Assembly: GCA_011523265.1 (NCBI GenBank)
Contig: WTHD01000026.1
Coordinates: forward strand, 1-34,785
From: Candidatus Binatota bacterium
Lineage (GTDB): Bacteria; Desulfobacterota; Binatia; Bin18
Length of the DNA: 34,785 nt
Reading direction: 5' to 3'
The translations under genes and the position numbers were made by a program. This document shows, piece after piece, positions 910-7,176 of the stretch. The notes under the pieces are model-generated. The model saw only the letters and a program-made list of their open reading frames with translations, was not told the origin of the DNA and made no database searches. The first letter of the stretch is position 1. Every line of letters starts with the position of its first letter.

Positions 910-1162
910 GAATTAGTCCCTCTCAAAATATCTTCTAAGTAAAGTAGGGTTAGAAATCTTTTCACAATGCAGCACAGTCAACTGTTCTTAATCCACATCA
1001 GACCTAGTAAGTATATAAATCCCAAAGCAAAGGGCAGCCCCGTGTGGTTACCTTTTGCTTATTCTTTCTGGGCCTCTCAACGTTGACATCGCCTCTAGGC
1101 AGACTTAGCGTATACTCATGCGCCTACCTTGGTTGGAACTGAGCGCGGAGGAGGTGACCACC

Positions 1163-2014
1163 ATGCTACGCACCACGCTTTTACTCGGTGCCCTGACCGG
1201 CCTGATTATGCTGATCGGGCAGTATTTTGGCGGTCCTCAGGGGCTGACCATTGCCTTTATCTTTGCCGTCATCATGAACTTTGGCAGCTACTGGTTTTCG
1301 GACAAGATCGTCCTCAAGATGTACGGCGCGCATCAGGTCTCGGAAGCCGACGCCCCGCAGCTCTACCGCATTGTTCACGCCCTGACCGTTCGGGCCGGGC
1401 TACCCATGCCCAAGCTGTATATTATCCCCTCCGAGGGAGCGAACGCCTTTGCCACGGGCCGGAATCCCGAAAACGCGGCCGTGGCCGTCACCCAGGGTAT
1501 CCTGCGTTTGATGAATGAGCGCGAGTTGACCGGCGTCCTAGCGCATGAACTCGCCCATGTGAAGAACCGCGACATCCTCATCAGCTCCATTGCCGCGACC
1601 TTGGCCGGGGTGATCATGATGATTGCCCATATGGCCCAGTGGGCCGCCATTTTTGGCGGGTTCAGCCGTAGTGATGACGACGAAGGCGGCGGCGGGATGC
1701 TGGGGCTCATTCTGATGGCCATCCTGGCGCCGCTGGCGGCCACAATTATCCAGATGGCGATCTCGCGTACGCGCGAATACGCCGCGGACCGGAGCGGCGC
1801 CCAGATGAGCGGCGACCCCGAGGGCCTGGCTTCGGCCCTGGAAAAGCTCGGCTTCGCGTCCGAGCGCGTTCCCATGGAGGCCTCGCCTCAGACGGCTCAC
1901 TTCTTTATCGTCAACCCGCTGTCCGGACGCTCCATGGCGGGCCTGTTTACCACCCATCCGCCGCTGGAAGAGCGTATCGCCCGGCTGCGGGCGATGTCCG
2001 GACGCATGGCGTAA
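1163..2014 (+). CDS. htpX: Membrane zinc metalloprotease HtpX (M48 family)
   Basis: HtpX homologues are inner-membrane zinc endoproteases that take part in membrane-protein quality control, with the active site on the cytoplasmic side. The sequence has two N-terminal hydrophobic segments, the zinc motif HELAH (His128 to His132) and a third ligand Glu205 in [10 protein letters not shown]. Two more hydrophobic stretches lie between them, around a Gly/Asp-rich loop. The 283-residue length fits the family. I chose the ATG at 1163 because GGAGGAGGTGA lies just before it and the protein then begins with the hydrophobic segment. An in-frame ATG at 1118 would add 15 polar residues and lacks such a site. 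A -10-like TATACT is at 1111-1116. A strong terminator follows the gene. Confidence 0.93.
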
Positions 2015-2043
2015 CGGCCTCGATCTTCACATGACCGTATGGA

Positions 2044-2074
2044 GGGGCAGCCCTTGTGGCTGCCCCTTTTGTTT
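2044..2074 (+). terminator. Intrinsic terminator of htpX
   Basis: A perfect 9-bp stem, GGGGCAGCC (2044-2052) with GGCTGCCCC (2058-2066), closes a 5-nt loop and is followed by TTTTGTTT. It lies 30 bp after the htpX stop codon and separates htpX from the next cassette. Confidence 0.9.
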
Positions 2075-2314
2075 CTCCATTCCCTCAACCCTAACGCTAT
2101 CGCTCCCCTCACTAACTTACGAAAACATTGAGACCCATTCGAATACGGTCGGTATGGTGTAAGTCCCTGAAATTCGCCGATCTGGACCTGTCTTCATTTG
2201 CACGAGCAAATTCGTTGTACCACGTTGTTCAAAAAATGCTTAACACACTTAAGAGGGCTATGTATACTGCCATACGTTACAATGAAGAACAACGAAGAAT
2301 ACAGGAGGAAAGCA

Positions 2315-4633
2315 ATGGAGACGAAAGTTCACAAAGCGACCAAAACGAGATCGAGCAGGCCAGGTTGGAGCGTAATCTTCAGCCACCCTTGTCGAAGGGA
2401 TGCCCGCGGCAGGCTGGGGCTGAAAGTGCGGCGTGGTCTTGGTACGACGAATGATGAAGAAGCTGATCAAATGGTTGAACAGCTTAACGAACTCCTCGCC
2501 AATTCGTACTGGTGGAGCATTGACCGACGTTCTGAGGCCGAACGACAGTTCGATAAAGTCGTCGCCTCAGCATTCTTTGACGGTATTGAAGTCGGCAAGA
2601 GCAATTCCAAAGACCTACGGGAAGAGATTATACAACTGCCCACTCCAGAGGATAACGAGGATAACTACGCACGGGTGATGCTAGTCGGCTCCACAGGGGC
2701 AGGCAAAACCACTCTGCTACGCCATTTCATCGGCTCCGACCATAAGCGCGACCGCTTCCCTTCCACATCGACAGCAAAGACGACAACGGCTGATATCGAG
2801 ATAGTAGTAGCAACCGGGCCTTTCAAGGCAGCGATAACCTTTATGACCGAGCACGAGGTTCGCTGTGCCGTTGACGAGTGTCTGGAAGCCGCCTGCGAGA
2901 GCATAATCCGGGAATACGAGGACACCAGGGTAGCTGAGGCTCTGCTGGAACATCGGGAACAGCGTTTTCGACTCTCCTATCCCCTCGGCGCATGGCAACA
3001 GGAGCAGCCGGGGCAGGAGGCAGACGACCAGTATGAGATGGATTACGAGTACGAAGGCGAAGCGGCGGAAGCGGGCACTTTGGCAGATGATGAAATCGTG
3101 GATGCAGTCGAAATTACTAAGAACAACGAACGCTTGAGTGAATACGTTTCTCGTATCAGGGAAGTCGCAACGGCGGTACGCAAGCAAATAGCGAAGGAGC
3201 GTGGCGACTTTCAGAACATGGACAACGCCAATCGTCGGCAAGACTGGCTGGAAGACTTCACCGATGCGTTGTACGAGAATCAGGATTTCGCCCAGCTCTC
3301 CCTTGATATCATGGATACCATCTCGGAGCGGTTCGAATTGGTTGTGACGGGTGATTTTGATCGTAGCGCAACAGGTTGGCCAACCCTTTGGCGCTACGAG
3401 GAAAAAGACCGCGACACCTTCCTGGAGCAGGTACGATGGTTTAGCAGTAATCACGACCAGCAGTTTGGGCGGCTGCTGACGCCTATGGTTAGCGGTATCC
3501 GGGTGCGCGGCTCGTTTCAGCCGGCTGTAGCCACCCTTCAGGATGATGACCGAAGGATTGTACTGTTGGATGGCGAGGGGCTAGGCCATTCGGCGAAGGA
3601 GGCCACAAGCGTATCCACAAAGGTAACTGAAAAGTTTCCTGAAGCGGACATGATTCTGCTTGTGGACAATGCGGAGTCTCCGATGCAGGCTGCCTCACTG
3701 GAACTCCTTCGGTCGGTTGGCAGTAGCGGTCACGGACACAAACTCGCTGTCGCTTTCACACATTTCGATCATGTGAAGGGTGACAACCTACGCACCTATA
3801 ACCAGAAGCAGAACCACGTTCGCGCCTCAATTGGTAACGCCCTTGTCAGTCTGCGCGAATCACTAGGGGCTCCAGTAACAGAGATACTGGAACAACAATT
3901 GACAAACAAAGATTTTTACTTGGGTGGTTTGGATAGGGTTACGAAGAAAATACCACGCCGTGATATCAGACAAATGAAGGACTTGTTTGAACAAATGCAG
4001 CAGGCGGTTAAAGATTCTGAGACGATTGCAGCCGCTCCAACTTATAACATCGCCCGATTGGAACTCGCTCTGCGCGACGCCACCGACGGGTTCAAAAATC
4101 CCTGGCGGGGTAGGTTGGGGCTCAGCTATTACGAAGGCATTCGCAAGGAGCACTGGGGGCGCGTTAAAGCGTTGTGCCGGCGCATAGCCAACCTTTGGGA
4201 TGATGAGTACAACGGACTACGGCCTGTCGCTGACCTAGTTCGCCAGTTACAAAATAGTATATCCCTATGGCTGGATAATCCTTCCGGCTGGACCAGACAG
4301 CCGGGTAATGAGGAAGAAGAGAAAACCGCTATAAACAAAATACGTCAGGAGGTGTTTGTCCGTATCCACAAGCTTGCAGTACAGCGTCTAATGACTAACA
4401 AACTCGACGCTTGGCGAACCGCTTTTGGGTTCAGCGGCAGGGGGTCAAGCCGTCTAAGGGCAGAGGAGATGGATCGAATATATAATGCTGCGGCGCCATC
4501 TATTACTTCTGCAATGGACCCTCCAACACAGGATTTCTTGAACCAAATCGTCCAGGATGTCAGCGACTCCATTGAGGAATCCGGTGGTTCGCTGAGCGGT
4601 ATTACCGAGCGCCCATCTACCAACGTTGGGTAA
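2315..4633 (+). CDS. Large P-loop GTPase with integrase-arm-like N-terminus
   Basis: This 772-residue protein has GTPase motifs: a P-loop GSTGAGKTT (125-133), a Thr-rich switch-I-like stretch STSTAKTTTAD soon after, G3 DGEGLG (Asp419-Gly422), and a G4-like THFD (482-485) followed by HVKGDN. Between P-loop and G3 is a long insert that is very acidic near residues 230-255 and partly helical. A helical C-terminal third follows. Residues about 16-65 (GWSVIF, then KVRRGLGTTNDEEADQMVEQ) resemble the arm-type DNA-binding domain of phage integrases. The start at 2315 is set by AGGAGG six bases upstream; an ATG at 2198 is in frame but has no such site. The gene has visibly lower G+C than htpX. It is followed after 40 bp by a glycosylase-like gene, presumably in one operon. 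A DNA-related or defence role is inference. Confidence 0.8.
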   Translation: METKVHKATKTRSSRPGWSVIFSHPCRRDARGRLGLKVRRGLGTTNDEEADQMVEQLNELLANSYWWSIDRRSEAERQFDKVVASAFFDGIEVGKSNSKDLREEIIQLPTPEDNEDNYARVMLVGSTGAGKTTLLRHFIGSDHKRDRFPSTSTAKTTTADIEIVVATGPFKAAITFMTEHEVRCAVDECLEAACESIIREYEDTRVAEALLEHREQRFRLSYPLGAWQQEQPGQEADDQYEMDYEYEGEAAEAGTLADDEIVDAVEITKNNERLSEYVSRIREVATAVRKQIAKERGDFQNMDNANRRQDWLEDFTDALYENQDFAQLSLDIMDTISERFELVVTGDFDRSATGWPTLWRYEEKDRDTFLEQVRWFSSNHDQQFGRLLTPMVSGIRVRGSFQPAVATLQDDDRRIVLLDGEGLGHSAKEATSVSTKVTEKFPEADMILLVDNAESPMQAASLELLRSVGSSGHGHKLAVAFTHFDHVKGDNLRTYNQKQNHVRASIGNALVSLRESLGAPVTEILEQQLTNKDFYLGGLDRVTKKIPRRDIRQMKDLFEQMQQAVKDSETIAAAPTYNIARLELALRDATDGFKNPWRGRLGLSYYEGIRKEHWGRVKALCRRIANLWDDEYNGLRPVADLVRQLQNSISLWLDNPSGWTRQPGNEEEEKTAINKIRQEVFVRIHKLAVQRLMTNKLDAWRTAFGFSGRGSSRLRAEEMDRIYNAAAPSITSAMDPPTQDFLNQIVQDVSDSIEESGGSLSGITERPSTNVG

Positions 4634-4644
4634 TCATATACTTG
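4621..4644. repeat. Left copy of a 24-bp inverted repeat around the UDG-like gene
   Basis: The sequence CAACGTTGGGTAAT then ATATACTTG, with one base between, matches 5365-5388 in inverted orientation at 23 of 24 positions. This copy carries the last two codons and stop of the GTPase gene. Similarity stops abruptly outside CAACG on both sides, as in terminal inverted repeats. The enclosed segment is 768 bp and holds only the UDG-like gene. Confidence 0.75.
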
Positions 4645-4673
4645 CCTAATCACGCAAAGAGAGGAGGATTCCG

Positions 4674-5330
4674 ATGGCCGAATGTGTAAGGGAGAACGAA
4701 GAAGGAGTGTATGGGTTTCGACCCTGGATTGGTGAGTATTACCAGCAGAATATGTGGGGACGGCGCGTTTTGGTCCTTGGTGAGTCACATTATCAATGGG
4801 ACGAAAATCAGCCAATTGACAACTGGCCTACCCTGACGATTGAATGCGTTGAGGAGACAATTGCTGGGGAATATACTGGTCGGTTCTGGACCAATATCGC
4901 GGTTGCATTTCTCAACCCCCTTCCTCATCACCTTCCCAGCTTGGCCGAAAAAGGAGAGTTCTGGCATTCCGTCGCGTTTTACAACTTCATTCAACAGGGA
5001 GTCGGATTTGGCCCGTACCCGAATCCGACTCCAGCAATGTGGACTGAAAGTCTCCCTGCCTTTCAGTCTCTCCTGAATACCCTTCAACCCGAGTTGGTCA
5101 TTGTCCTGGGAAGACAGAACTGGTGGAATATTCAGGGACTTGGTGGCCAAGAGGGGTGGCCCATAGAAGGGGCACGATATACAGAGACGCAGTGGTTACC
5201 ACACGCTGGTGGACAGTGCCTTGCGTATGGCATTTGCCATCCGTCTGCGCGTGGTCGGTATGGTTTTAATGGACGATATTGGCATCCCTTTATTATGCAG
5301 GCACTCCAGTATGCAGACGGGCCGCATTAA
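4674..5330 (+). CDS. Uracil-DNA-glycosylase-like protein
   Basis: A 218-residue protein with the layout of the uracil-DNA glycosylase superfamily. RVLVLGESHY (Gly36-Tyr40) sits where motif 1 (GQDPYH or GEAPG) is found, LVIVLGRQNWW is the central strand, and ICHPSARGRYGF (His189-Ser191) resembles motif 2 (HPSPLS). The middle segment FYNFIQQ, GFGPYPNPTPAMW and PAFQSLL looks family-specific. Known UDG-fold proteins remove deaminated or modified bases or bind DNA; the substrate here is unknown and activity is not assured, because motif 1 lacks the usual catalytic Asp. GAGGAGG precedes the ATG. The gene follows the GTPase gene by 40 bp, ends before a terminator, and lies inside 24-bp inverted repeats, which suggests it can move as a unit. 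Confidence 0.65.
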   Translation: MAECVRENEEGVYGFRPWIGEYYQQNMWGRRVLVLGESHYQWDENQPIDNWPTLTIECVEETIAGEYTGRFWTNIAVAFLNPLPHHLPSLAEKGEFWHSVAFYNFIQQGVGFGPYPNPTPAMWTESLPAFQSLLNTLQPELVIVLGRQNWWNIQGLGGQEGWPIEGARYTETQWLPHAGGQCLAYGICHPSARGRYGFNGRYWHPFIMQALQYADGPH

Positions 5331-5364
5331 AGAATACGGCCTGCTTTAGCCTAGGATGGTTATC

Positions 5365-5388
5365 CAAGTATATTATTACCCAACGTTG
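5365..5388. repeat. Right copy of the 24-bp inverted repeat
   Basis: Read on the minus strand it is CAACGTTGGGTAAT, one mismatched base, then ATATACTTG, the partner of 4621-4644. Outside the outer end (5389 onward) there is no match to the flank of the left copy, and no target-site duplication is evident. Confidence 0.75.
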
Positions 5389-5471
5389 CCCAATGATGAG
5401 AATGCAATCCCAACTTGTAGTTCCAAGACGACTGAGCCCTCTGTGCTGTTGTTTAGCGGGCATATTCTGAG

Positions 5472-5497
5472 GGCGGGCACAATGCCCGCCTTGTTTT
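5472..5497 (+). terminator. Intrinsic terminator after the GTPase/UDG-like pair
   Basis: An 8-bp stem, GGCGGGCA (5472-5479) with TGCCCGCC (5483-5490), has a 3-nt loop and is followed by TTGTTTT. It lies 140 bp after the UDG-like stop codon and probably ends the two-gene transcript. The rest of 5331-5609 holds no credible gene. Confidence 0.8.
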
Positions 5498-5521
5498 CAC
5501 TTCACTGCCAATAGGTTCAGC
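5496..5521. repeat. Direct repeat copy 1 of the cyclase 3' end
   Basis: The sequence TTCACTTCACTGCCAA followed by TAGGTTCAGC matches 6237-6262 at 23 of 26 positions. Read on the minus strand it gives LNLLAVK and a stop, close to the true cyclase end LNPLAVK. The two copies bracket the hicA-hicB module. Confidence 0.6.
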
Positions 5522-5609
5522 AGATACTGACTGTATGCGGATGGACAGGTCTGAGAACACGGGTTCAAGGAGCGTCTACTGCCTTTAAGGGTGACTCACG
5601 CAATCCCTC

Positions 5610-5945
5610 TCACGCCGACCCTGCGGGCAACGCCTTCTCCAATATTTCCTGGATATATGTATCGATACCCACCCGACGGCGAGCCGCTTCTAAAGCGAGA
5701 CGCCGGTGGAGTTCAGGACTTGTCTGGAACGCTAACTTTCCCGAGCACGGTGGCTCGGGCGCCCGCCCCTGTTCTCGGCAGAATGCAAGATATTCCTCCA
5801 CAGACTTCTGCATTTCTTCTCGGAGTTCCTTGACGGAGACACCGTAGAACGTAATCACGTCATTTGTGTTGATGACGGTTCCGTGAAAGGAGTCGATTTC
5901 GGAGTCGAACTCAAAGGTGCCGATATAGCCTTTGTACTCAATCAT
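5610..5945 (-). CDS. hicB: HicB-family antitoxin
   Basis: The 111-residue protein has the HicB layout: an N-terminal partial RNase-H-like fold (YKGYIGTFEFD, DSFHGTVINTNDVITFYG, LREEMQKSVEEYLAFC) and a C-terminal ribbon-helix-helix segment (SGKLAFQTSPELHRRLALEA, then GIDTYIQEILEKAL). HicB neutralises the HicA RNase and usually represses the operon. Its ATG overlaps the stop of the upstream hicA as ATGA, the classic arrangement. Because hicA carries a one-base lesion, this may now be a lone antitoxin or repressor. Confidence 0.9.
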   Translation of the reverse strand: MIEYKGYIGTFEFDSEIDSFHGTVINTNDVITFYGVSVKELREEMQKSVEEYLAFCREQGRAPEPPCSGKLAFQTSPELHRRLALEAARRRVGIDTYIQEILEKALPAGSA

Positions 5946-6194
5946 GGCCTAATCCCCACGTTTACGAGAAAACGCCGCACAGTTCTCACTGCGCCTTTAT
6001 CCATATTCGGGCTCGGATGCGGGCGATGGAACACCGCAACACGGTCATTCAGCAAAACAGCCACTCTCGACCCAACGCGCGCTCATGACAGCGCCTAAAG
6101 ATTCCAACAGTGATTCAACTTCTTGCCATTTAGTATTACCCAATATGGGCTGGGTGAAAAGCGCGTTGAGTGTCCTTCTGTGTCGTTTTGTCAT
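5942..6194 (-). pseudogene. hicA: HicA-family toxin, frameshifted
   Basis: Two overlapping frames together give a complete 83-residue HicA-like mRNA interferase. The first frame starts at the ATG at 6194 (MTKRHRRTLNALFTQP) and runs to about residue 40. The second continues GSRVAVLLNDRVAVFHRPHP and NMDKGAVRTVRRFL to the stop at 5944-5942. Removing one T from the TT pair (plus-strand AA at 6074-6075) joins them without any other change. With it, the first frame stops early and the FHRPHP segment is lost. The toxin stop overlaps the hicB start. It could be a true pseudogene, an assembly indel, or less likely a +1 frameshifting gene. Confidence 0.85.
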
Positions 6195-6236
6195 GAGTGC
6201 GTCGTTGTCTCGTTCCGGCGTCCTACCCGCCTCCTG

Positions 6237-6262
6237 TTCACTTCACCGCCAACGGGTTCAGC
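6237..6262. repeat. Direct repeat copy 2, at the cyclase 3' end
   Basis: This copy includes the last seven codons and stop of the cyclase gene. It matches 5496-5521 with three mismatches, so the toxin-antitoxin segment lies between a real gene end and an imitation of that end. Confidence 0.6.
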
Positions 6263-7176
6263 GGGCTGCCGACCGCGTTGGGGATGTTGAGCGGCGGGGC
6301 GACCCACAGGAATTCGTACACGCCGTCAGCGGCGCAGTCTTCTGCCAGGGCTTCGAAGGTAAAAATCTCACCCAGCGAGAGACCGAGGTCACGGATGGCG
6401 ACCTGATGAAAAGGAATGAATTCGTCATCCACTTCGGACGGCAGCCGTTCGACGGCGATATTGTCCACGGCAATGCAGGCAATTTCTTTCTGATGGATCC
6501 ATTCCGCAGTTGAGACCGAAACACCGGGCTGAGCGTGGAAGTAGGCTTCCTTCTGTTCCGGCGTTTCGAGCGTATACCAATACGGCACCCAGCCGGTGCG
6601 GATACATAGCGCGTCGCCACTTCTGACCTCGACGTTCTGCGCCTGACAGCAGCCGTCCAGGTCTTCGGCCGTAATCGGATAGTCGGCCGGGAGATGCCCG
6701 TCGGCTTCGCAGCCTTTGTAGCGGACCATATCGAGCAGCACGCCTCGGGTGACAAACGACTGGTACAGCTTACCAATATCGTTCCTGGACGCCCCGCCGT
6801 GGGCGGTGATGGCGCTGGCCGGCACATCGTTGTAGTACTTGCCGTCGTAGCCCACGTGGGCCAGGCTGTCCCACTGGGTCGAGCCTTGCAGATACATGGT
6901 AATATAGTCGTCGTTGGCAATGGCCGAGCCCGCCAGACCGACTTCCTTGACCGGGACGTTGAGGATCGACATAAACCGCTGGGGCGGGGTGCGGGTAGGA
7001 AAGACCGGTCCATCCTGGTCAATCGGAATGCAGCAGCAGAAAACCTGCCCCTTGCGGACCAGTCTGGCCGCGGCGACAATCACCTCCGGCGTAATGAAAT
7101 TGGCCGTCCCCTTTTCATCATCCGCTCCCCACCGACCCCAGTTTGAGACTTTTGGTATGGCTTCGCGTCCAGGCAT
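6238..7176 (-). CDS. Cyclase-family metal-dependent hydrolase
   Basis: A 312-residue member of the large branch of the cyclase/kynurenine-formamidase family (PF04199), recognised from NWGRWGADDEKGTANFITPE near the N-terminus, from STQWDSLAHVGYDGKYYND in place of the shorter HxGTHxDxPxH motif, and from IACIAVDNIAVERLPSE. These enzymes hydrolyse amides or lactones, often in degradation of aromatic compounds; the substrate here is unknown. AGGAGGG lies before the ATG. It is the last gene of a run of minus-strand genes, and its 3' end is duplicated at 5496-5521. Reaction class is well supported, specificity is not. Confidence 0.88.
   Translation of the reverse strand: MPGREAIPKVSNWGRWGADDEKGTANFITPEVIVAAARLVRKGQVFCCCIPIDQDGPVFPTRTPPQRFMSILNVPVKEVGLAGSAIANDDYITMYLQGSTQWDSLAHVGYDGKYYNDVPASAITAHGGASRNDIGKLYQSFVTRGVLLDMVRYKGCEADGHLPADYPITAEDLDGCCQAQNVEVRSGDALCIRTGWVPYWYTLETPEQKEAYFHAQPGVSVSTAEWIHQKEIACIAVDNIAVERLPSEVDDEFIPFHQVAIRDLGLSLGEIFTFEALAEDCAADGVYEFLWVAPPLNIPNAVGSPLNPLAVK

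Follow-up and report, generated by a model that had tools for sequence, protein, structure and literature searches.

The window, a 34,785-nucleotide stretch of contig WTHD01000026.1 from a Candidatus Binatota bacterium (GCA_011523265.1), contains two ORFs on the forward strand separated by a gap of 40 bp. The upstream one (positions 2315–4633) encodes a predicted GTPase of 772 aa from an ATG start, with the ribosome-binding site AGGAGG at 2303–2308 (forward strand). The downstream one (4674–5330), also with an ATG start and with GAGGAGG at 4661–4667 on the same strand, encodes a 218-aa protein related to uracil-DNA glycosylases (UDG). A preliminary description of this DNA had presented both genes as one system, with good ribosome sites, a lower G+C content than htpX, a common terminator and a neighbouring toxin–antitoxin module. 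The ORFs, their start codons and their ribosome sites were found, as was the difference in composition (53.0 and 51.3% G+C for the GTPase and UDG genes, respectively, vs. 62.3% for htpX). The other two claims stood only in part. One terminator-like hairpin (5470–5492, forward strand) lies 3' of both genes, but it is present without the UDG gene in the relatives G299, G300, and G302, and the same hairpin precedes the cyclase gene in relatives that have neither gene; therefore, the terminator belongs to the site. As for the toxin–antitoxin module, a HicB-like antitoxin ORF (5610–5945, reverse strand; Pfam HicB, 1.8e-13) was found, but it stands alone, with no HicA seen, and it represents separate cargo that is absent from G299.

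Analysis of G299, a genome of the same genus, revealed the GTPase gene at the same site and no UDG gene beside it. Both GTPase genes are 94.9% identical in DNA sequence (dN 0.022, dS 0.115), and 734 of the 772 residues are the same. The G299 junction corresponds to the window minus a segment of 752 bp (4629–5380, forward strand) and minus one copy of the 8-bp sequence CAACGTTG, which flanks this segment on both sides in the window (4621–4628 and 5381–5388, forward strand) and appears once in G299, as expected for a target-site duplication (TSD). At the ends of the segment there are imperfect terminal inverted repeats (TIRs) of about 24 bp, the left one being GGTAATCATATACTTGCCTAATCA (4629–4652, forward strand) and the right one, as reverse complement, GGTAATAATATACTTGGATAACCA (5357–5380, reverse strand). 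Left and right ends agree over 16 bp with 1 mismatch, and the 32-nt arms, palindromic TSD included, are 88% complementary. The UDG ORF alone fills the 752 bp, with no transposase, and the last codon and the stop codon of the GTPase (ending at 4633) are provided by the left TIR. The intergenic space between the two genes is thus a transposon end, a feature invisible to the preliminary description.

On sequence grounds, we identify this segment as a transposase-less mobile insertion cassette with IS1595-type repeats, which lies, together with its 8-bp duplication, within the final codons of the gene for the GTPase. The combination of TIR and TSD was found at the UDG gene of the window, in none of 60 shuffles and at none of 13 other UDG loci; the UDG-family locus of G301 showed no such combination. 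In addition, contig 78 of G299 carries at an unrelated site a decayed UDG copy (67% at the amino acid level) with the same right TIR. The empty site in G299, the IS1595 elements with the same ends and this decayed copy identify the UDG gene as the passenger of the cassette, and insertion in the window is more parsimonious than precise excision in G299.

Full IS1595-family transposons with cassette-type ends are present in the genus or its family. The ends of one of them, L124, match the cassette TIRs at 20–21 of 24 positions, and clean duplications of 8–9 bp surround L124 (3548 bp), L127 (2879 bp), and L130 (1236 bp). Transposases are encoded in L123, L124, L127, and L129, all of the same TIR family, those of L123 and L124 showing 40% identity to annotated IS1595 family transposases over 91–97% coverage, and related full elements with DNA methyltransferases were found in the genus. 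This agrees with the 25-bp TIRs and 8-bp duplications described for IS1595-type elements (PMC5704250). A resident IS1595 transposase presumably acted on the cassette in trans; genome G000 yielded a transposase fragment (L132) and no complete autonomous element with the exact cassette TIR, its copies being partial or at least 3 positions off. In its inverted repeats, target duplication, presumed mobilisation in trans and a passenger in place of the transposase, the cassette resembles MIC231 of Bacillus cereus and the qnrD mic element (PMC3913671), whereas its ends are of IS1595 and not IS231 type, its passenger has a predicted UDG fold, and its mobilisation in trans is our reading of these data. 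It also shares TIRs of about 25 bp, the 8-bp duplication and the carriage of passenger genes with the IS1595 elements MTnSag1 and tISCpe8 (PMC5704250), but has lost its transposase completely.

The surroundings of the GTPase gene also bear signs of mobility. The gene lies between htpX, coding for an M48 peptidase (1118–2014, forward strand; Pfam M48, 2.2e-36), and a putative cyclase gene (6238–7176, reverse strand; Pfam Cyclase, 6.4e-25). In G297, G302, G303, and G305, these two flanking genes are adjacent, with a nearly empty gap of 69–370 bp, vs. 4.6–6.7 kb in G299, G300, and G301. Other relatives carry defence genes at this site, namely Septu PtuA (2.9e-148), TmtA (3.5e-79), and a PD-T4-6-like kinase (5.8e-13), so the cargo setting proposed earlier is borne out. 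A second copy of the 3' terminus of the cyclase gene (5497–5521, forward strand) marks the boundary of the GTPase module, and positions 5380–5521 align in L093 next to where the cyclase gene ends. Cargo at the htpX–cyclase junction varies within the genus, and in the window it is the GTPase alone.

The G1 (GSTGAGKT, residues 125–132), G3 (DGEG, 419–422), and G4-like (THFD, 482–485) motifs noticed earlier in the 772-aa protein are invariant or nearly so in an alignment of 29 members (A3). Its AF2 model (pLDDT 83) gave fold matches to SynDLP (Foldseek, 4.7e-6), a bacterial dynamin pair (5.2e-5 for bacterial dynamin), mitofusin and Toc34, centred on residues 110–568, and the C-terminal part is modelled as helical. 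The predicted structure thus supports a large TRAFAC GTPase with a dynamin-superfamily-like fold, in line with the large GTPase of the preliminary description; the assignment at dynamin family level is weak, because the EF-Tu score in VIA (Z 14.7) nearly equals that of mitofusin (14.8); only families present in the VIA list were counted as evidence. In predicted fold, its GTPase domain resembles those of DynA of B. subtilis, which delays phage lysis (PMC8844932), SynDLP, the dynamin pair of PDB 5owv/5oxf, and LeoA. In contrast to these bacterial dynamin-like proteins, it has an extra Arm-like N-terminal domain, a helical insert of about 200 residues between the G2 and G3 strands, and THFD instead of TKxD as G4; it shows no sequence match to them and is encoded by a lone, horizontally moving gene. 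The N-terminal domain (residues 1–62; 2315–2500, forward strand) has a beta-beta-beta-alpha secondary structure in the AF2 model and is Arm/DUF6538-like. It is usual in the family but missing from the aligned Rhodococcus plasmid homologues, and DUF6538 matched below threshold in 4 of 11 family members (best E 0.0045); the domain is a putative DNA-binding one. DUF6538 was not found in 20 relatives or in a literature search, and in the homologue records it appeared in two plasmid ORFs, neither of them annotated as integrase, so an integrase link for this N-terminus is not proven. The PDB sequence search gave no matches, and the best PADLOC hit of the GTPase (mad8, 2e-5) covered only the P-loop and was not convincing. 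For either protein, nothing beyond generic P-loop families passed the curated cut-offs of Pfam, NCBIfam, PADLOC, and PHROGs.

The UDG-like motifs reported before in the 218-aa passenger, GESHY (residues 36–40), FYN (102–104), and HPS (189–191), were confirmed, with E37, N104, and H189 conserved. Its match to the Pfam UDG model is below threshold (E 0.014). In its AF2 model (pLDDT 79.7) the protein has the alpha/beta fold of UDGs: all 21 Foldseek matches below 1e-3 were TDG, family 4, UdgX or MUG proteins, and the family-4 UDG 4zby aligned over 170 residues (Z 13.5, rmsd 3.6). Family 4 UDGs and UdgX (Z 12–13 for the latter) resemble it in predicted fold (Z 12–13.5 over about 160–170 residues), in the motif-1 Glu and in the His of HPS, whereas the passenger has GESHY for their GExPG and no conserved cysteines for an iron–sulphur cluster, as no column of the UDG-family alignment held at least 3 Cys. 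PADLOC offered no matching model, the phage collection no match, and a single-sequence query of viral contigs no hit.

The adjacency of the two families, which the preliminary description had offered as a check of its two-gene system, spoke against that system. The UDG family was found at 0 of 31 GTPase homologue loci, each with at least 1 kb of downstream DNA, and the GTPase at 0 of 14 UDG-family loci. The genes next to the GTPase homologues on the 3' side (a 452-aa protein in L013, a GIY-YIG-like one in L034, a 602-aa protein in L005) are non-recurrent, and therefore no alternative partner was found. Two independent mobile-cargo events rather than one operon, with the GTPase arriving at the hotspot and the cassette entering its 3' end, are thus very probable. 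A true defence or DNA-quality system, in which the GTPase would sense or remodel and the UDG-like protein would make abasic sites in invading DNA, with both genes transcribed and terminated as one unit, is in agreement with the 40-bp spacing, the two ribosome sites, the single downstream terminator and the carriage of both families by mobile elements. However, the sister genome keeps a 95%-identical GTPase gene in this position with no UDG gene, which already largely refutes such a system, the UDG gene is bounded by its own TIRs and TSD, and its remnant lies apart from the GTPase gene, so we consider it very improbable; co-transcription may occur, but as an accident of insertion. Deletion in G299 between chance direct repeats of 8–9 bp, which are able to mediate such events, would explain the 752-bp difference with no transposon, but TIRs placed exactly at the segment ends and matching IS1595 ends, together with the remnant bearing the same TIR, make it very improbable as well. 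One small transposon insertion can hence create a convincing-looking two-gene defence operon, and TIR, TSD, and empty sister site are a concrete check before new systems get named.

As for the role of the GTPase, its family is rare and patchily distributed, at odds with a housekeeping GTPase. Homologues are encoded on plasmids, conjugative ones included, and in phage structural gene clusters or prophage-like contigs, with type I RM, Abi, and patatin/nucleotidyltransferase genes as neighbours in individual cases. We lean towards a single-gene antiphage or anti-plasmid factor as a plausible role. The Arm-like N-terminus would contact DNA, and the large helical protein, assembling in a GTP-driven manner, would target either the incoming DNA or, once infection has taken place, the membrane. 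A horizontally spread dynamin-like protein of the membrane or cell envelope (fusion, stress, division), with no part in defence, is somewhat unlikely: its fold neighbours are membrane-remodelling GTPases and the homologue in G298 (same genus, 40% identity) has ordinary metabolic neighbours, but neither the plasmid and prophage distribution with a defence hotspot nor the additional N-terminal domain fits it well. Less likely still is a plasmid or prophage factor for maintenance, segregation or exclusion of rival elements: conjugative plasmids and prophage-like contigs carry the gene and an integrase-type N-terminus could bind element DNA, but the gene also occurs at a chromosomal hotspot with no plasmid functions nearby.

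Beyond the single-gene factor, a broader and rather speculative possibility is that the GTPase founds a new single-gene antiphage family, with an integrase-Arm-like DNA-binding head fused to a dynamin-like GTPase assembling on invading DNA, and that IS1595-type cassettes are small vehicles carrying genes for DNA modification (glycosylase, methyltransferases) from one genome to another, with some of these genes ending up in defence loci. Two leads arise from this locus: a widespread unnamed GTPase family, usually with the extra Arm-like N-terminus, on plasmids, in prophages and at a defence hotspot, and a mobile UDG-fold passenger. The latter is probably active as the predicted glycosylase and would act on uracil or a modified base, perhaps as a Brig-like enzyme. 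It belongs to the UDG superfamily, as do the phage-defence DNA glycosylases Brig1 and Brig3 (PMC11078745, PMC13160076), but, in contrast to these, it sits in a transposon cassette. The likeness to Brig1 comes through a common match, the S. tokodaii family-4 UDG 4ZBY, which is the best structural match of Brig1 and also the top one of the passenger.

The open reading frames that prompted this analysis were borne out: a 772-residue GTPase (2315–4633, + strand) is followed after 40 bp on the same strand by a 218-residue UDG-like protein (4674–5330), both with strong ribosome sites. G1, G3 and a G4-like THFD are invariant or nearly so across 29 homologues of the GTPase, and the second protein shows GESHY, FYN and HPS. 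Both genes are also poorer in G+C (53.0% and 51.3%) than htpX (62.3%), as the preliminary description had stated. The observation was confirmed, but the two-gene system proposed from it was not.

The sister genome G299, of the same genus, carries the GTPase at the same site, in the htpX/cyclase interval; the two proteins agree at 734 of 772 residues (dN/dS about 0.19), and G299 has no UDG gene at this site. The alignment leaps from window position 4628 to 5380, where G299 reads ACCAACGTTGCCC and the window ACCAACGTTG/GGTAATCATATACTTG...CAAGTATATTATTACC/CAACGTTGCCC. The extra segment (752 bp, 4629–5380) carries inverted repeats at both ends, in which 16 bp pair with a single mismatch and a looser match runs on to about 24 bp; copies of an 8-bp duplication lie on either side. 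Such a structure was found in none of 60 shuffled sequences and at none of 13 other UDG loci. The stop codon of the window GTPase falls within the left repeat of this cassette, and the protein ends in TNVG, versus TNVAR in G299. Another contig of G299 holds a disrupted UDG gene whose protein is 67% identical and which shares the cassette's right end, so that the cassette, and not the gene pair, is the unit that moved. Parsimony favours insertion in the window lineage over a precise loss from G299, since every other GTPase locus lacks the UDG gene as well.

Homologues of the GTPase (31–59% identical) were found in plasmids of Bradyrhizobium, Rhizobium, Agrobacterium, Caballeronia, Azospirillum and Rhodococcus, in bacterial genome contigs, and in prophage-like contigs, adjoining tape-measure and DUF6441 genes. 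The UDG-family profile had no match in any of these loci, of which 31 distinct ones include at least 1 kb downstream (some of the virus contigs being near-identical to one another), and the GTPase was absent from all 14 UDG-family loci. Across the phylum (297 genomes), three genomes gave a UDG match and seven a GTPase match (some weak or partial), the only genome with both being the window's own. Judged from these neighbourhoods and the sister site, the two genes are not a pair; the comparison of family adjacency suggested earlier found them neighbours only in the window. At eight loci the homologue lies within a cluster of phage structural genes (tape measure, DUF6441) but is encoded on the other strand from them, in the manner of moron genes.

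The repeat pattern GGTAATNATATACTTG occurred 22 times in the window's genome versus 3 for the reversed control, and 17 versus 3 times in G299, with paired repeats enclosing elements of 0.5–3.8 kb. Four of these encode a transposase of 319–331 aa: L124 (3548 bp, duplication TTTGGCAAA), L127 (2879 bp, duplication TAACGAAA), L129 (3838 bp, with an N-6 DNA methylase-like passenger) and L123 (2941 bp, with an N4/N6 DNA methyltransferase passenger). The L123 and L124 enzymes share 40% identity with annotated IS1595 family transposases, and the literature describes IS1595-type elements with 25-bp repeats and 8-bp duplications (PMC5704250). Element L130 (1236 bp, duplication CAAATTTG) has a passenger without a transposase, like the window segment, which is by its structure a mobile insertion cassette such as those reported for IS231 and qnrD (PMC3913671). 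An IS1595 transposase would mobilise it in trans, and co-transcription of passenger and GTPase would be accidental. Events of this kind, in which a transposon cassette lands in a cargo site, are known; what is unusual here is the passenger. L130 and L128, both transposase-less, carry a weakly methyltransferase-like protein; DNA-acting passengers are borne by the same-ended IS1595-type elements L123, L129, L130 and L128.

The passenger gave a sub-threshold UDG match in sequence libraries, and its model (pLDDT 79.7) matches the family-4 UDG 4zby (Z 13.5, 170 residues), as well as UdgX and TDG, in line with the glycosylase-like motifs first noted. It keeps both the Glu of motif 1 and the His of HPS, but lacks GExPG and conserved cysteines, so that by predicted fold it belongs to the UDG superfamily, not to family 4. 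It may be a glycosylase acting on uracil or a modified base, like Brig1 and Brig3 (PMC11078745; PMC13160076).

For the GTPase, sequence libraries returned generic P-loop matches only. Its AlphaFold2 model (pLDDT 83), in which a helical insert of about 200 residues sets apart the G2 and G3 strands, gave SynDLP (4.7e-6) and a bacterial dynamin pair (5.2e-5) as best Foldseek matches, and mitofusins (Z 14.8) in VIA. Because EF-Tu scores about equally there, the modelled fold places it, as far as this goes, as a TRAFAC GTPase nearest the dynamin superfamily. Residues 1–62 form three strands and a helix with a sub-threshold likeness to Arm/DUF6538, a domain not present in the aligned Rhodococcus plasmid homologues. 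More distant relatives, namely open frames of 975–992 aa in Campylobacterales and Aureivirga (L026, L027) and a 608-aa frame from a further genome of the phylum (L064), suggest a wider superfamily.

The htpX/cyclase junction (window 2014–6238; L093–L097) is a variable-cargo hotspot in the genus, nearly empty in four relatives (69 bp in G297, 370 bp in G302, 87 bp in G303, 80 bp in G305). The gap reaches 5.0 kb in G299, with Septu PtuA (2.9e-148), 6.65 kb in G300, with TmtA (3.5e-79) and an ATPase ORF related to PtuA, and 4.6 kb in G301, with a PD-T4-6-like kinase (5.8e-13). Homologues of the GTPase have type I restriction genes nearby at L009, L022 and L046 (partial at L015), an Abi gene at L008 and a patatin/nucleotidyltransferase pair at L006. 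Given the hotspot and these neighbours, a defence role for the GTPase by itself is our best guess. It could act alone against phage, with its N-terminal domain binding DNA and its assembly depending on GTP; the main rival to this DNA route is action at the membrane, since the bacterial dynamin DynA can slow phage lysis (PMC8844932). The family, without a name so far, merits its own phage assay.

The 3' ends of the flanking genes recur as partial copies between successive cargo modules: htpX copies stand before modules in each of G299, G300 and G301, and a cyclase copy (window 5497–5521) sits between the GTPase module and a HicB ORF, with junction-locus positions at 4368–4416 (L093, reversed), about 4690 (L094, reversed) and about 2869 (L095). 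As these copies separate the modules, they suggest stepwise addition by recombination at the flanking genes. The HicB-like ORF (5610–5945, minus strand), with no recognisable HicA partner, is absent from G299.
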